The notes under the pieces are model-generated. The model saw nothing but the letters and a program-made list of their open reading frames with translations, had not been told where the DNA came from and ran no database searches. DNA of 48,626 nt from a virus, in the IMG/VR virus record IMGVR_UViG_3300020192_000016, positions 1 to 48,626 of that record. One strand, written 5' to 3'. Below are positions 42,615 through 48,626 of the stretch, piece after piece. A program made the position numbers and the translations under genes. Position 1 is the first letter of the stretch; each line of letters opens with the position of its first letter.

Positions 42615-42636
42615 TCTGAGCACGAAGTCTTGTTGC

Positions 42637-42925
42637 TCATAGCCTTCACGCCCTGATAGCCTTCACGCCCTGATAGCCTTCACGCCCTGATAGCCTCATA
42701 GCCTCATAGCCTCATAGCCATGCCATGCCGTGCTCATAGGCTCATAGCCATCACGCCCTGATAGCCTGATAGCCTTCACGCCCTGATAGCCTCATAGCCA
42801 TCACGCCCTTCACGTGCTCATAGCCTCATAGCCTCATAGCCATCACGCCCTTCACGCCCTGATAGCCTCATAGCCTCATAGCCATCACGCCCTCATAGCC
42901 TCATAGTCTCATAGCCATGCCGTGG
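42637..42925. repeat. C-rich low-complexity array (left arm)
   Basis: Irregular tandem array of CATAGCCT-type 9-mers and the 17-mer GATAGCCTTCACGCCCT, with interruptions such as CATGCCGTG. The plus strand is strongly C-rich and G-poor. No open frame is credible. Its reverse complement resembles the G-rich array at 43031-43180 (CTATGAGGCT is the complement of AGCCTCATAG), so the two could pair as a large imperfect hairpin. Confidence 0.85.
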
Positions 42926-43030
42926 TGTATGCCTTAAATCGTCACGCTTTGCCGCCTAGGTGCCACTTTCACCCCCATGCCGCTACCCTCATAGCCATCG
43001 ACGGTATAAAGCTCACCTCGGAGAGTTTAG

Positions 43031-43180
43031 AGGCTTAGAGGCTTGGTGGCTGGTGGCTATGAGGCTTGGTGGCTGGTGGCTATGAGGCTTGGTGGCTGGT
43101 GGCTTGGTGGCTTGGTGGCACTGAGGTGCTGAGGTGCTGAGGGGCTTGGTGGCTTGGTGGCTTGGTGGCTTGGAGAGTTA
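43031..43180. repeat. G-rich low-complexity array (right arm)
   Basis: Tandem units of GGCTTGGTG (9 bp) and the 23-mer formed by GGCTTGGTGGCTGG plus TGGCTATGA, followed by GAGGTGCT copies. The plus strand is G-rich and nearly C-free compared with the left arm, so strand skew flips in the about 100 bases between the arrays (42926-43030). No gene is seen in this 560-base stretch. Confidence 0.85.
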
Positions 43181-43200
43181 ACGCACCAAGGCGCAGTTAT

Positions 43201-45345: not shown

Positions 45346-46299
45346 ATGAAAAAAGAAGAATTAAAACTAATACTAGATAACCACGCACTTTGGGTGTCAA
45401 ACAATTCGAAGGGCATGAAAGCTGATTTAACTCATGCTGATTTAACTCAAGCTGATTTATCAAATGCTAATTTAAGTCGCGCTGATTTATCAAATGCTAA
45501 TTTATATAATGCTGATTTATCAAATGCTAATTTATATAATGCTGATTTATCAAATGCTAATTTACGTCATGCTGATTTATCAAATGCTGATTTATCAAAT
45601 GCTGATTTATCAAATGCTAATTTAACTCATGCTAATTTACGTCATGCTGATTTATCAAATGCTAATTTACGTCATGCTGATTTATCAAATGCTGATTTAA
45701 CTCATGCTAATTTACGTCATGCTGATTTAACTCATGCTAATTTACGTCATGCTGATTTATCAAATGCTGATTTACGTGATGCTGATTTATCAAATGCTGA
45801 TTTATCAAATGCTGATTTAACTCATGCTAATTTAAGTCGCGCTGATTTATCAAAAGCTGATTTATCAAATGCTGATTTATATGAAGCTGATTTCACTTCG
45901 ACGCTCTTGAGACTAAGTAACTTACGATTTGCGAATAACTTACTTACAATAAAAAGTTTACCGGCCGCAAAAAGAGAGTTGTTTGAAAAGCTTGGCGCAT
46001 TTAAAAATGAAGCTCAAGGACTATATAAAGCAGCTGTTGGCGGAAAGATCGACGGTTCAGCATATGAGGGCGACTGTGCTTGTTTTGTTGGCACTATTGC
46101 AAACTTGTTGGATCAAAATTACAAAGAGCTAGAAAACTTGAAACATGATGATGAGTCACTCATTGAGCGTCTTTTTTCAGCTGTTACTACGGGCGATACA
46201 CCAACGAATAACCCAATATCGAAGATTGTACAAGATTGGTTGATTGAATTTATGGGCATATACGACATCGAAGTTCCAACTTTAAATTGGAGTAAATAG
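45346..46299 (+). CDS. Pentapeptide-repeat protein with C-terminal domain
   Basis: 317-residue protein. After a short head (EELKLILDNHALWV, common in phage members), residues about 25-185 are some 32 pentapeptides of the A(D/N)LxN type, predicted to form a right-handed square beta-helix. The last about 120 residues are a different domain with GKIDGSAYEGDCACFVGTIA, seen in other pentapeptide proteins. Some family members (Qnr, MfpA) mimic DNA and bind gyrase; whether this one does is unknown. GAGGGG precedes the ATG. Nearly every unit uses the same codons. Confidence 0.9.
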   Translation: MKKEELKLILDNHALWVSNNSKGMKADLTHADLTQADLSNANLSRADLSNANLYNADLSNANLYNADLSNANLRHADLSNADLSNADLSNANLTHANLRHADLSNANLRHADLSNADLTHANLRHADLTHANLRHADLSNADLRDADLSNADLSNADLTHANLSRADLSKADLSNADLYEADFTSTLLRLSNLRFANNLLTIKSLPAAKRELFEKLGAFKNEAQGLYKAAVGGKIDGSAYEGDCACFVGTIANLLDQNYKELENLKHDDESLIERLFSAVTTGDTPTNNPISKIVQDWLIEFMGIYDIEVPTLNWSK

Positions 46300-46301
46300 C
46301 C

Positions 46302-46829
46302 ATGACTAAAGAAGAATTAAAAAAGATCTTGGATAGCCATAAGCTCTGGCTATCCGACGGCATGAAGGGCAAGAAAGCTGATTTATCATATGCTAATTTA
46401 CATAATGCTGATTTACATAATGCTAATTTACGTGATGCTGATTTACATAATGCTAATTTACGTGATGCTGATTTAAGTCGAGCTAATTTACACTTCGCTA
46501 ATTTACGCTACGCTGATTTAAGTTTCGCTGATTTACGTTTCGCTGATTTACGTTTAGCTGATTTACATAATGCTAATTTACGTGATGCTGATTTAAGTCG
46601 AGCTAATTTACGCTACGCTAATTTACGTCATGCTGATTTATCAAATGCTGATTTAACTCATGCTGATTTAACTCATGCTGATTTATCAAATGCTAATTTA
46701 CGTCATGCTGATTTATCAAATGCTAATTTACGTGAATCTGATTTACGTGCCACGAATTTACTTCACGTTAATTTACATGAAGTTAAAAGGTCACTAGATG
46801 ATACGGAAATGAATGAAGGTAGGAACTAA
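46302..46829 (+). CDS. Pentapeptide-repeat protein
   Basis: 175-residue protein, second of three tandem pentapeptide genes, starting two bases after the first gene. It has the same head (EELKKILDSHKLWLSDG) and about 25 pentapeptides, then a short tail (ATNLLHVNLHEVKRSLDD). The head and the last 99 bases are nearly identical to the third gene, marking a recent duplication with only the repeat interior diverging. There is no C-terminal domain as in the first gene. Confidence 0.9.
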   Translation: MTKEELKKILDSHKLWLSDGMKGKKADLSYANLHNADLHNANLRDADLHNANLRDADLSRANLHFANLRYADLSFADLRFADLRLADLHNANLRDADLSRANLRYANLRHADLSNADLTHADLTHADLSNANLRHADLSNANLRESDLRATNLLHVNLHEVKRSLDDTEMNEGRN

Positions 46830-46832
46830 GTC

Positions 46833-47270
46833 ATGAAAAAAGAAGAATTAAAAAAGATCTTGGATAGCCATAAGCTCTGGCTATCCGACGGCATGAAGGG
46901 CAAGAAAGCTGATTTATCATATGCTAATTTGAGTAACGCTGATTTGAGTAACGCTGATTTGAGTCATGTTAATTTATATGAAGCTAATTTACGTGAAGCT
47001 AATTTACGTGATGCTAATTTATATGATGCTGATTTACGTGAAGCTGATTTACGTTACGCTGATTTACGTTACGCGGATTTATCATACGCTGATTTACGTG
47101 AAGCTGATTTACGTCACGCTAATTTACGTTACGCTGATTTATCATACGCTAATTTAACTTACGCTGATTTACGTGAATCTGATTTACGTGCCACGAATTT
47201 ACTTCACGCTAATTTACATGAAGTTAAAAGGTCACTAGATGATACGGAAACGAATGAAGGTAGGAACTAA
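46833..47270 (+). CDS. Pentapeptide-repeat protein
   Basis: 145-residue paralogue of the preceding gene, with about 20 pentapeptides. The head is the same as in the second gene, and the tail differs by only two bases in 99. The interior units use more Tyr, Glu and Arg (LREAD, LRYAD) than the first gene. Its stop overlaps the ATG of the coiled-coil gene (TAATG). The variable interior between constant ends suggests shuffling of repeat units between copies. Confidence 0.9.
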   Translation: MKKEELKKILDSHKLWLSDGMKGKKADLSYANLSNADLSNADLSHVNLYEANLREANLRDANLYDADLREADLRYADLRYADLSYADLREADLRHANLRYADLSYANLTYADLRESDLRATNLLHANLHEVKRSLDDTETNEGRN

Positions 47271-47632
47271 TGAAAATTGAAAATGAAATTAAGAAGATTG
47301 AAAACAAACTTAAAGCTATTAAAGATGCTGTGTCATTAGAAGCATACTCAATTGCGCCCTTCATCGAAGGTATTGAGGAAAACTTAGGTAGCATAATCGA
47401 ATTGTTTGAGTCTAAAGAAGATGAAATTGAAGAGTTACAAAGTGAAGTCAAAGAGCTTGAATGTCATATTGAAGAAGTAAGTGATGAGGCAGAAGAAGTT
47501 TTCCAATTGCTTAAATCGTTATGTAATTCGTACATGCTTTCTAATTCACAGTACATGCAAGATGAGATTTTAAACCTACTCGAATATAACTTTGGTTTAA
47601 AGTTAATTGTAGCACCAGCACATAACCCATAA
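47270..47632 (+). CDS. Acidic coiled-coil protein
   Basis: 120-residue acidic protein. Residues about 1-20 and 45-85 have Glu/Lys/Leu/Ile heptads of a coiled coil. The rest is helical. The ATG overlaps the stop of the third pentapeptide gene, so it is probably part of that operon and co-translated. Function unknown; a partner of the pentapeptide proteins is possible. Confidence 0.75.
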   Translation: MKIENEIKKIENKLKAIKDAVSLEAYSIAPFIEGIEENLGSIIELFESKEDEIEELQSEVKELECHIEEVSDEAEEVFQLLKSLCNSYMLSNSQYMQDEILNLLEYNFGLKLIVAPAHNP

Positions 47633-47647
47633 ATAATAAACAATAAA

Positions 47648-47682
47648 CGCATAAATTTATATGCGCTACTTAGGAGAGATAT
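47648..47682 (+). promoter_or_regulatory. Hairpin leader, copy 1
   Basis: CGCATA-AATTTA-TATGCG forms a 6-bp hairpin (47648-47665), followed by the TTAGGAGAGATAT ribosome-binding region and ATG at 47683. It is preceded by CAATAAA units. A nearly identical leader precedes the gene at 48157, so the two genes are probably regulated alike at translation. Confidence 0.7.
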
Positions 47683-48090
47683 ATGGCCTTAGAAACAATG
47701 AAAAATGTTACACAAATTAATGGCGAAAAAATTGTTTGTATGGATGACTTAAGAATACAATTTCCCGAGAAATTTAATGAATTGGGTTCTATGGACTATA
47801 AGTGGTTTGAAAAAGAAATTAGGCCACATAACTTTATTTATGTCCGCCATGATGTTAATTCCCTTTCATTTACAATCCAAAACGGGCCTATAAAAGAAGT
47901 TGGGAAGAACGGTTGTCAAGTTGAAGATGTCATAGCGGTAGCTAAACACATTATAGAGCAGTTAAATGAAAAGTTTCCATGCAGAGAAAACTCAATGATT
48001 ATTACAAAGCTTGATGAGGCCGTAATGTGGTCAAAGAAAAGGACACTAGATAGACAAAATAGGTCTTTTGAAGGATTAATTACGAACTAG
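47683..48090 (+). CDS. Acb2/Tad1-like cyclic-nucleotide sponge (anti-CBASS/anti-Thoeris candidate)
   Basis: 135-residue protein. From residue 64 to the end it matches by eye the phage proteins sharing the Acb2/Tad1 hairpin domain: IQNGPIKEVGKNGC (65-78), FPCRENS (98-104), TKLDEAVMW (108-116) and KRTLDRQNRSFEG (119-131). Known members bind signalling nucleotides made by CBASS or Thoeris immunity and so block defence. The first 60 residues (MDDLRIQFPEKFNELGSMDY region) are an extra N-terminal part not recognised. It lies next to other likely anti-host genes. The family is fairly sure; the ligand is unknown. Confidence 0.75.
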   Translation: MALETMKNVTQINGEKIVCMDDLRIQFPEKFNELGSMDYKWFEKEIRPHNFIYVRHDVNSLSFTIQNGPIKEVGKNGCQVEDVIAVAKHIIEQLNEKFPCRENSMIITKLDEAVMWSKKRTLDRQNRSFEGLITN

Positions 48091-48115
48091 AAACAATAAA
48101 CAATAAACAATAAAC

Positions 48116-48156
48116 AATTAGCGCATAAATTTATATGCGCTAATTAGGAGAGATAT
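48116..48156 (+). promoter_or_regulatory. Hairpin leader, copy 2
   Basis: AATTAGCGCATA (48116-48127) pairs perfectly with TATGCGCTAATT (48134-48145) across the loop AATTTA, giving a 12-bp stem. It is followed directly by AGGAGAGATAT and ATG at 48157. Four CAATAAA-type heptamers come just before. The core and ribosome-binding site equal copy 1. It may be a weak terminator or a translational control element; a CsrA site at AGGA is possible. Confidence 0.75.
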
Positions 48157-48492
48157 ATGATTTTAGAAACCCTTACTTATGGACAAATTAAAGAAATTCA
48201 AAAGCTATTCAAGCAAGAATCTTCGGTGAAAGAAACACCTTTTGAAATTGGGAAAAACTATTTGATTCGTACTGTGACAATGACACATTCGGGGAAAGTA
48301 AAAGCTATCATCGGAGACTTCCTAGTCCTCACAAGTGCCGCTTGGATTGCGGATACTGGTAGGTTTTCAGAAGCACTTGTTGACCAAAATAAATTCAATG
48401 AGGTTGAACCTTTTCTAAACGAAGTATTTGTAAATATCACTACGATTATCGACGCCACACAAATTGAGAAGCTTATCACATCGATGAAGTAG
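48157..48492 (+). CDS. Hypothetical protein, last rightward early gene
   Basis: 111-residue beta-rich protein. The central part (GKNYLIRTVTM, then DFLVLTSAAWIADTGRFSEAL and FNEVEPF) resembles a family of small uncharacterised proteins seen in phages and bacterial genomes; no function is known to me. It has the same hairpin leader and strong AGGAGAG site as the Acb2/Tad1-like gene, so the two are probably expressed together. It is the last gene before the non-coding junction region. Confidence 0.75.
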   Translation: MILETLTYGQIKEIQKLFKQESSVKETPFEIGKNYLIRTVTMTHSGKVKAIIGDFLVLTSAAWIADTGRFSEALVDQNKFNEVEPFLNEVFVNITTIIDATQIEKLITSMK

Positions 48493-48499
48493 TAATTTA

Positions 48500-48626
48500 T
48501 GATTGCAATAATTAAAGCTGGGTTTGCTAATTCACGGTCACGGTCATGTTCAGGGTCATGTTCACATTCATGGTCACGTTCACGTTCACGTTCACGAAGC
48601 AGATATTTATGATTGCAATAATTAAA
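48500..48626. repeat. Terminal direct repeat, right copy (circular junction)
   Basis: Exact copy of bases 1-127. Position 48493 to the end, continued at 1-595, forms one uninterrupted non-coding region after circularisation. No gene is seen between the stop of the gene ending at 48492 and the start at 596. Confidence 0.9.

Follow-up and report, generated by a model that had tools for sequence, protein, structure and literature searches.

The gene at positions 47683-48090 of the window, the whole stretch of 48,626 nucleotides of viral DNA analysed here (IMG/VR record IMGVR_UViG_3300020192_000016), encodes a member of the known Tad1 (Thoeris anti-defence 1) family from an uncultivated phage and is thus a relative of proteins that have already been characterised. 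Judging from the family as a whole, its product probably acts as a sponge, which would sequester nucleotide immune signals and thereby keep Thoeris or CBASS effectors switched off.

The gene and its genomic setting

The open reading frame at 47683-48090 on the plus strand is intact over 135 codons and represents a real gene, as it is equipped with a ribosome-binding site and has full-length relatives under purifying selection. The gene and the parts of its product are as follows:

47672..47676, plus strand: ribosome-binding site AGGAG, read from the sequence, with the ATG 6 nt further on
47683..48090, plus strand: putative sponge gene of the Tad1 family, 135 aa plus stop, from ATG to TAG
47683..47823, plus strand: residues 1-47, lineage-specific N-terminal segment (model pLDDT ~90-94), kept in long-type relatives; the model predicts a helix at 3-6, a strand at 15-19 and helices at 20-26 and 39-49
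47824..47880, plus strand: residues 48-66, two strands (52-55 and 60-63) and the start of the Q-x-G-P stretch common to Tad1
47881..47913, plus strand: residues 67-77, conserved NGPIKEVGKNG loop with the lowest model confidence (pLDDT ~67)
47917..47973, plus strand: residues 79-97, predicted first long helix of the hairpin domain (model; PF24729)
47980..47991, plus strand: CREN motif, residues 100-103, of which C100, E102 and N103 are invariant in comparison with validated Tad1
47983..48060, plus strand: residues 101-126, predicted second long helix of the hairpin domain (model)
48061..48087, plus strand: residues 127-135, C-terminal tail with the conserved R127, E130 and G131

The window contains genes for portal/adaptor, terminase, capsid, tail, DNA polymerase, helicase and exonuclease proteins, and its terminase is about 39% like that of Xanthomonas phage CP2. 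Because the first 127 bases are identical to the last 127 (an exact direct terminal repeat, 1-127 and 48500-48626), the window probably represents an entire phage genome of about 48.5 kb, either terminally redundant or circularised. The structural genes are encoded on the minus strand, whereas the sponge gene lies on the plus strand within an accessory cluster and is co-oriented with the replication genes when the window ends are joined.

Several other features were observed in this region. A leader of 75 bases is duplicated with 88% identity, one copy (47622-47696) belonging to the sponge gene and the other (48096-48170) to the next gene; the duplicated stretch comprises AAC/AATAAA repeats, the hairpin GCGCATAAATTTATATGCGC, a ribosome-binding site and the first codons (M-x-LET). 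The hairpin has a shuffle z-score of -5.9 for the copy at 48096-48170, and the minus-strand reading is terminator-like in both copies. Just upstream of the sponge gene, positions 45346-47270 encode three pentapeptide-repeat proteins in a row, with A-D/N-L repeats and a period of 15 bases; these are clearly related copies and by appearance the result of a recent duplication. The gap separating divergent gene blocks harbours a long imperfect repeat tract (42636-43192), whose CTCATAGCC and GGCTTGGTGGC units are complementary to one another. Downstream of the sponge gene, positions 48157-48492 encode a hypothetical protein of 111 aa, which has one relative in the isolate collection (a Manatee Spring contig, 48%) and another in locus L008, 1.2 kb past the sponge gene of that locus. 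No conserved partner gene was found among the neighbouring gene families of the sponge loci.

Assignment to the Tad1 family

A first-pass annotation had assigned the protein to the Acb2/Tad1 superfamily on the basis of three motifs of the hairpin domain. All of them are present, namely CREN at residues 100-103, TKL-EA-MW as TKLDEAVMW at 108-116 and RT--R---EG as RTLDRQNRSFEG at 120-131, the full form of the latter being RT-x2-R-x2-R-x2-EG. The assignment is borne out by sequence, profile and Foldseek comparisons, which group the protein specifically with Tad1. The hairpin profile PF24729 (Acb2_Tad1_hairpin) matches the window protein with E=7.3e-5 and 23.3 bits (24.4 bits in the genome search), which is below the curated cut-off of 27 bits; since the 65% identical relative L004 clears this cut-off with 28.1 bits, the shortfall looks like a limit of sensitivity at the edge of the family. 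PHROG 2428 (phrog_2428) is matched with E=5e-19 over residues 46-132, and the best sequence match in the PDB is the Tad1 entry 8kbb (CmTad1; E=1.5e-14, residues 41-132), which was also recovered in a profile search against the PDB (E=1.7e-16). All further PDB sequence matches with E below 0.01 are either Tad1 or phiKZ gp184. Judging from the matches to PF24729, phrog_2428 and 8kbb, the motifs are not a chance resemblance. Comparison by hhalign with 30 Tad1 sequences assembled around the validated SBSphiJ7 Tad1 gave a probability of 99.9% over residues 48-134, and 18 residues besides Met1 are invariant between the window family and the SBSphiJ7, SPG24 and Thanatos proteins (Q66, G68, P69, G74, N76, G77, I84, N95, C100, E102, N103, I107, A113, R120, R124, R127, E130 and G131). 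Searches of NCBIfam and PADLOC gave no match for the window protein, and a Pfam match to Pneumovirus M2 (E=0.026) was rejected as chance. Membership of the Tad1 family is based on this sequence and profile evidence.

The predicted structure agrees with the hairpin reading. An AlphaFold2 single-chain model, which was built on an alignment of 54 sequences (pLDDT 90.2, pTM 0.82), is ordered as a strand (15-19), two helices (20-26 and 39-49), two strands (52-55 and 60-63) and two long antiparallel C-terminal helices (79-97 and 101-126; pLDDT mostly 94-98), so that the helical hairpin expected by the annotation is predicted with high confidence. In a Foldseek search against the PDB, Tad1 structures occupy all of ranks 1 to 6, some of them in complex with cAAG, gcADPR/cADPR or cA3. 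With CbTad1, VIA-align gave Z 9.1 (1.7 A over 69 residues); taken alone, this score is weak evidence, since helical hairpins as such are a widespread fold. Superpositions on PDB structures cover residues 64-135 only, or residues 22-135 at an rmsd of 6.2 A (CmTad1), and leave the N-terminal sheet unsuperposed; of the predicted strands 15-19, 52-55 and 60-63, the last two match Tad1 by sequence.

The N-terminal segment and its variation among relatives

The annotation had further placed the first 60 residues outside the family pattern and proposed that they could be a second binding or effector module, which would make for a new architecture. A segment foreign to the pattern does exist; however, it comprises about 47 residues, as Tad1 homology starts at residue 48 in the hhalign comparison. 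In the full-length alignment, the strands within residues 48-66 correspond to Tad1, whereas residues 1-47 cannot be aligned. The proposed architecture was overstated: characterised Tad1 proteins are around 122 to 142 aa long and carry an N-terminal β-sheet ahead of the hairpin (PMC12043709), and 135 aa is therefore a normal size. The layout is likewise ordinary for the family, since both these sheets and the far longer extension of phiKZ gp184 precede the hairpin. What is specific to the lineage is the sequence of residues 1-47 together with the pair of predicted helices that separates the first strand from the second.

Searches of viral contigs retrieved 20 and then 57 loci, with at least 55 relatives of the protein. 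The long type possesses the N-terminus of the window protein and is mostly 135 aa in length, and several shorter types exist besides it. Long and shorter types begin alike, with MALETLK-x-I/V-x-x-I-G-G-F-x-V, and have the QNGPIKE-G-NGCQV loop in common, but diverge in the stretch that lies between this opening and the loop. Residues 1-47 are conserved in about 35 uncultivated phages, and sister phages have shorter versions in their place. Within the long type, both parts of the protein are under purifying selection, with a pN/pS of 0.23 for residues 2-47 and 0.27 for residues 48-135 (231 pairs, pS saturated). No record of the isolate phage collection covered 80% of the query or matched at full length, and a scan of genome contigs yielded three loci at the level of the hairpin and no full-length relative. 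Matches in plasmids, from Acinetobacter, are likewise confined to the hairpin. Three homologs (L019:3001-3369, L020:733-1101 and L039:257-622) retain the N-terminal segment and have a hairpin that lacks the CREN, MW and EG motifs, for which a change of function is possible. A single-sequence model of the first of these, of modest confidence, consists of strand-helix-helix-strand-strand and two long helices; with this mediocre model as query, a fold search gave nothing above noise.

Residues 1-47 could also be an independent module, acting on a second signal or on a host or phage protein and joined to a Tad1 sponge; its conservation would then be independent of the sponge and extend to relatives whose hairpin has lost its signal-binding motifs. 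The segment is at least as conserved as the rest of the long type (mean pN 0.19 for residues 2-47 versus 0.23 for residues 48-135), L019 and L039 keep it although their hairpin motifs are gone, and the first 66 residues alone reach a probability of only 0.6% against the 30 Tad1 sequences in hhalign. Nevertheless, such a module is unlikely, both as an addition to the sponge and as a part conserved independently of it. In characterised Tad1, the corresponding position is taken by an N-terminal sheet of comparable size (PMC12043709), residues 1-47 are predicted to continue into the shared strands, and sister phages substitute shorter, different versions, as would be expected of a tolerant scaffold. 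Moreover, the segment is without a Pfam or PDB match: the N-terminal 61 residues alone had no Pfam match, only chance matches in the PDB and no relative among phage isolates. The most likely reading is that residues 1-47 provide the N-terminal scaffold that serves Tad1 for oligomerisation, in a form specific to this lineage.

Proposed function and comparison with known systems

According to what is described for the family, the protein would be made during infection, and its N-terminal sheet and helical hairpin would assemble into a multimer, which is a hexamer in characterised Tad1. This multimer would bind, but not degrade, glycocyclic ADP-ribose and/or cyclic di- or trinucleotides, and the Thoeris or CBASS effector of the host would consequently not be switched on. 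The residues kept in common with the SBSphiJ7, SPG24 and Thanatos proteins support a ligand-binding sponge. Asn92 and Phe82 of CbTad1 reportedly matter for the binding of gcADPR. In the alignments, Asn92 corresponds to N103 and is kept, whereas Phe82 corresponds to L94 and is changed in nearly the whole subfamily. As Leu94 presumably occupies the pocket position that is a Phe in characterised Tad1 (SBSphiJ7 and CbTad1), the ligand preference may differ from that of the characterised proteins. Against the sponge reading stand the PF24729 score below the cut-off, Leu94, and L019 and L039, whose N-terminal part is kept with decayed hairpin motifs, contrary to what would be expected of a pure sponge.

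A role of the hairpin-domain protein in the virion or in head assembly, either as a structural helical hairpin or as a sponge that is packaged and injected together with the DNA, is quite improbable. It is suggested by phiKZ gp184, which shares the C-terminal domain and for which injection and association with the inner body have been validated (PMC10449902), and by two relatives (L001:1077-4306 and L025:456-4286), in which the sponge gene is flanked on one side by a portal/adaptor gene and on the other by a gene resembling a protease or a scaffolding protein, a hint that some phages express it late or package its product. However, in other relatives the gene adjoins or lies near an exonuclease, methyltransferase, lysis or terminase gene, and the window gene is opposite in strand to the structural genes, in the accessory cluster; because placement varies across relatives and is here outside the structural block, a virion role is a minor rival. 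The conserved residues in common with validated Tad1 are retained as well, and the varied genomic position fits an accessory counter-defence gene. It is very unlikely that the protein is a degenerate family member with signal binding lost, as L019 and L039, clearly without the motifs, and Leu94 in place of Phe might indicate, since its CREN, TKL-EA-MW and Arg/EG tail are intact and its close relatives are under purifying selection.

Read as a Tad1-family sponge, the protein represents a sizeable uncharacterised subfamily that occurs in uncultivated phages and for which the isolate phage records searched contain no full-length match. The subfamily has an interchangeable N-terminal segment, a Phe-to-Leu change that suggests an altered ligand preference and some variants without the sponge motifs. 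Its natural N-terminal swaps could be used to probe how the scaffold influences assembly and the choice of signal in a widespread counter-defence family.

Among the known systems, CmTad1 (PDB 8kbb, 8kbc and 8kbd) and CbTad1 (7uav, 7uaw, 8smd, 8kbe and 8kbf) have the hairpin domain, the strand pair ahead of it, the Q-x-G and NG/HG loop, the CREN-type motif, T-K/H-L/V-x-E-x-x-MW and the R-x-x-x-R-x-x-R-x-x-x-G tail in common with the window protein. The chains in these entries comprise 132 and 125 residues, respectively, compared to 135 in the window protein, which differs from them in residues 1-47, in the predicted two-helix stretch (20-26 and 39-49) and in Leu94. The anti-Thoeris protein SBSphiJ7 Tad1 (OM982674, 142 aa; about 38% identity) likewise consists of an N-terminal part followed by the hairpin and shares the 18 invariant residues; however, its N-terminal part has a sequence of its own with an insertion of about 25 residues that is absent from the window protein. 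The C-terminal hairpin of phiKZ gp184 (230 aa; PDB 8y6v chain I) aligns at residues 156-226 with residues 63-132 of the window protein (E=4.2e-5), whereas its extension of around 155 residues is unrelated in sequence to the window N-terminus and its MW and CREN motifs are changed. Being virion-borne and injected (PMC10449902), gp184 suggests that virions may contain pre-loaded sponges; the position of the window gene does not suggest packaging. The hairpin domain also occurs in another jumbo-phage virion protein related to gp184 (201phi2-1 gp280, L069:838-1437). Acb2 (anti-CBASS 2) shares PF24729, but begins with a short helix and lacks an N-terminal sheet (PMC12043709), and is about 94 aa long; the window protein, with 135 aa and three predicted strands, does not have this form. 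An uncharacterised and unnamed viral protein in BFVD (A0A516MPI8, 135 aa) is a full-length structural match with a TM-score of 0.91 and 49% identity and belongs to the same subfamily.
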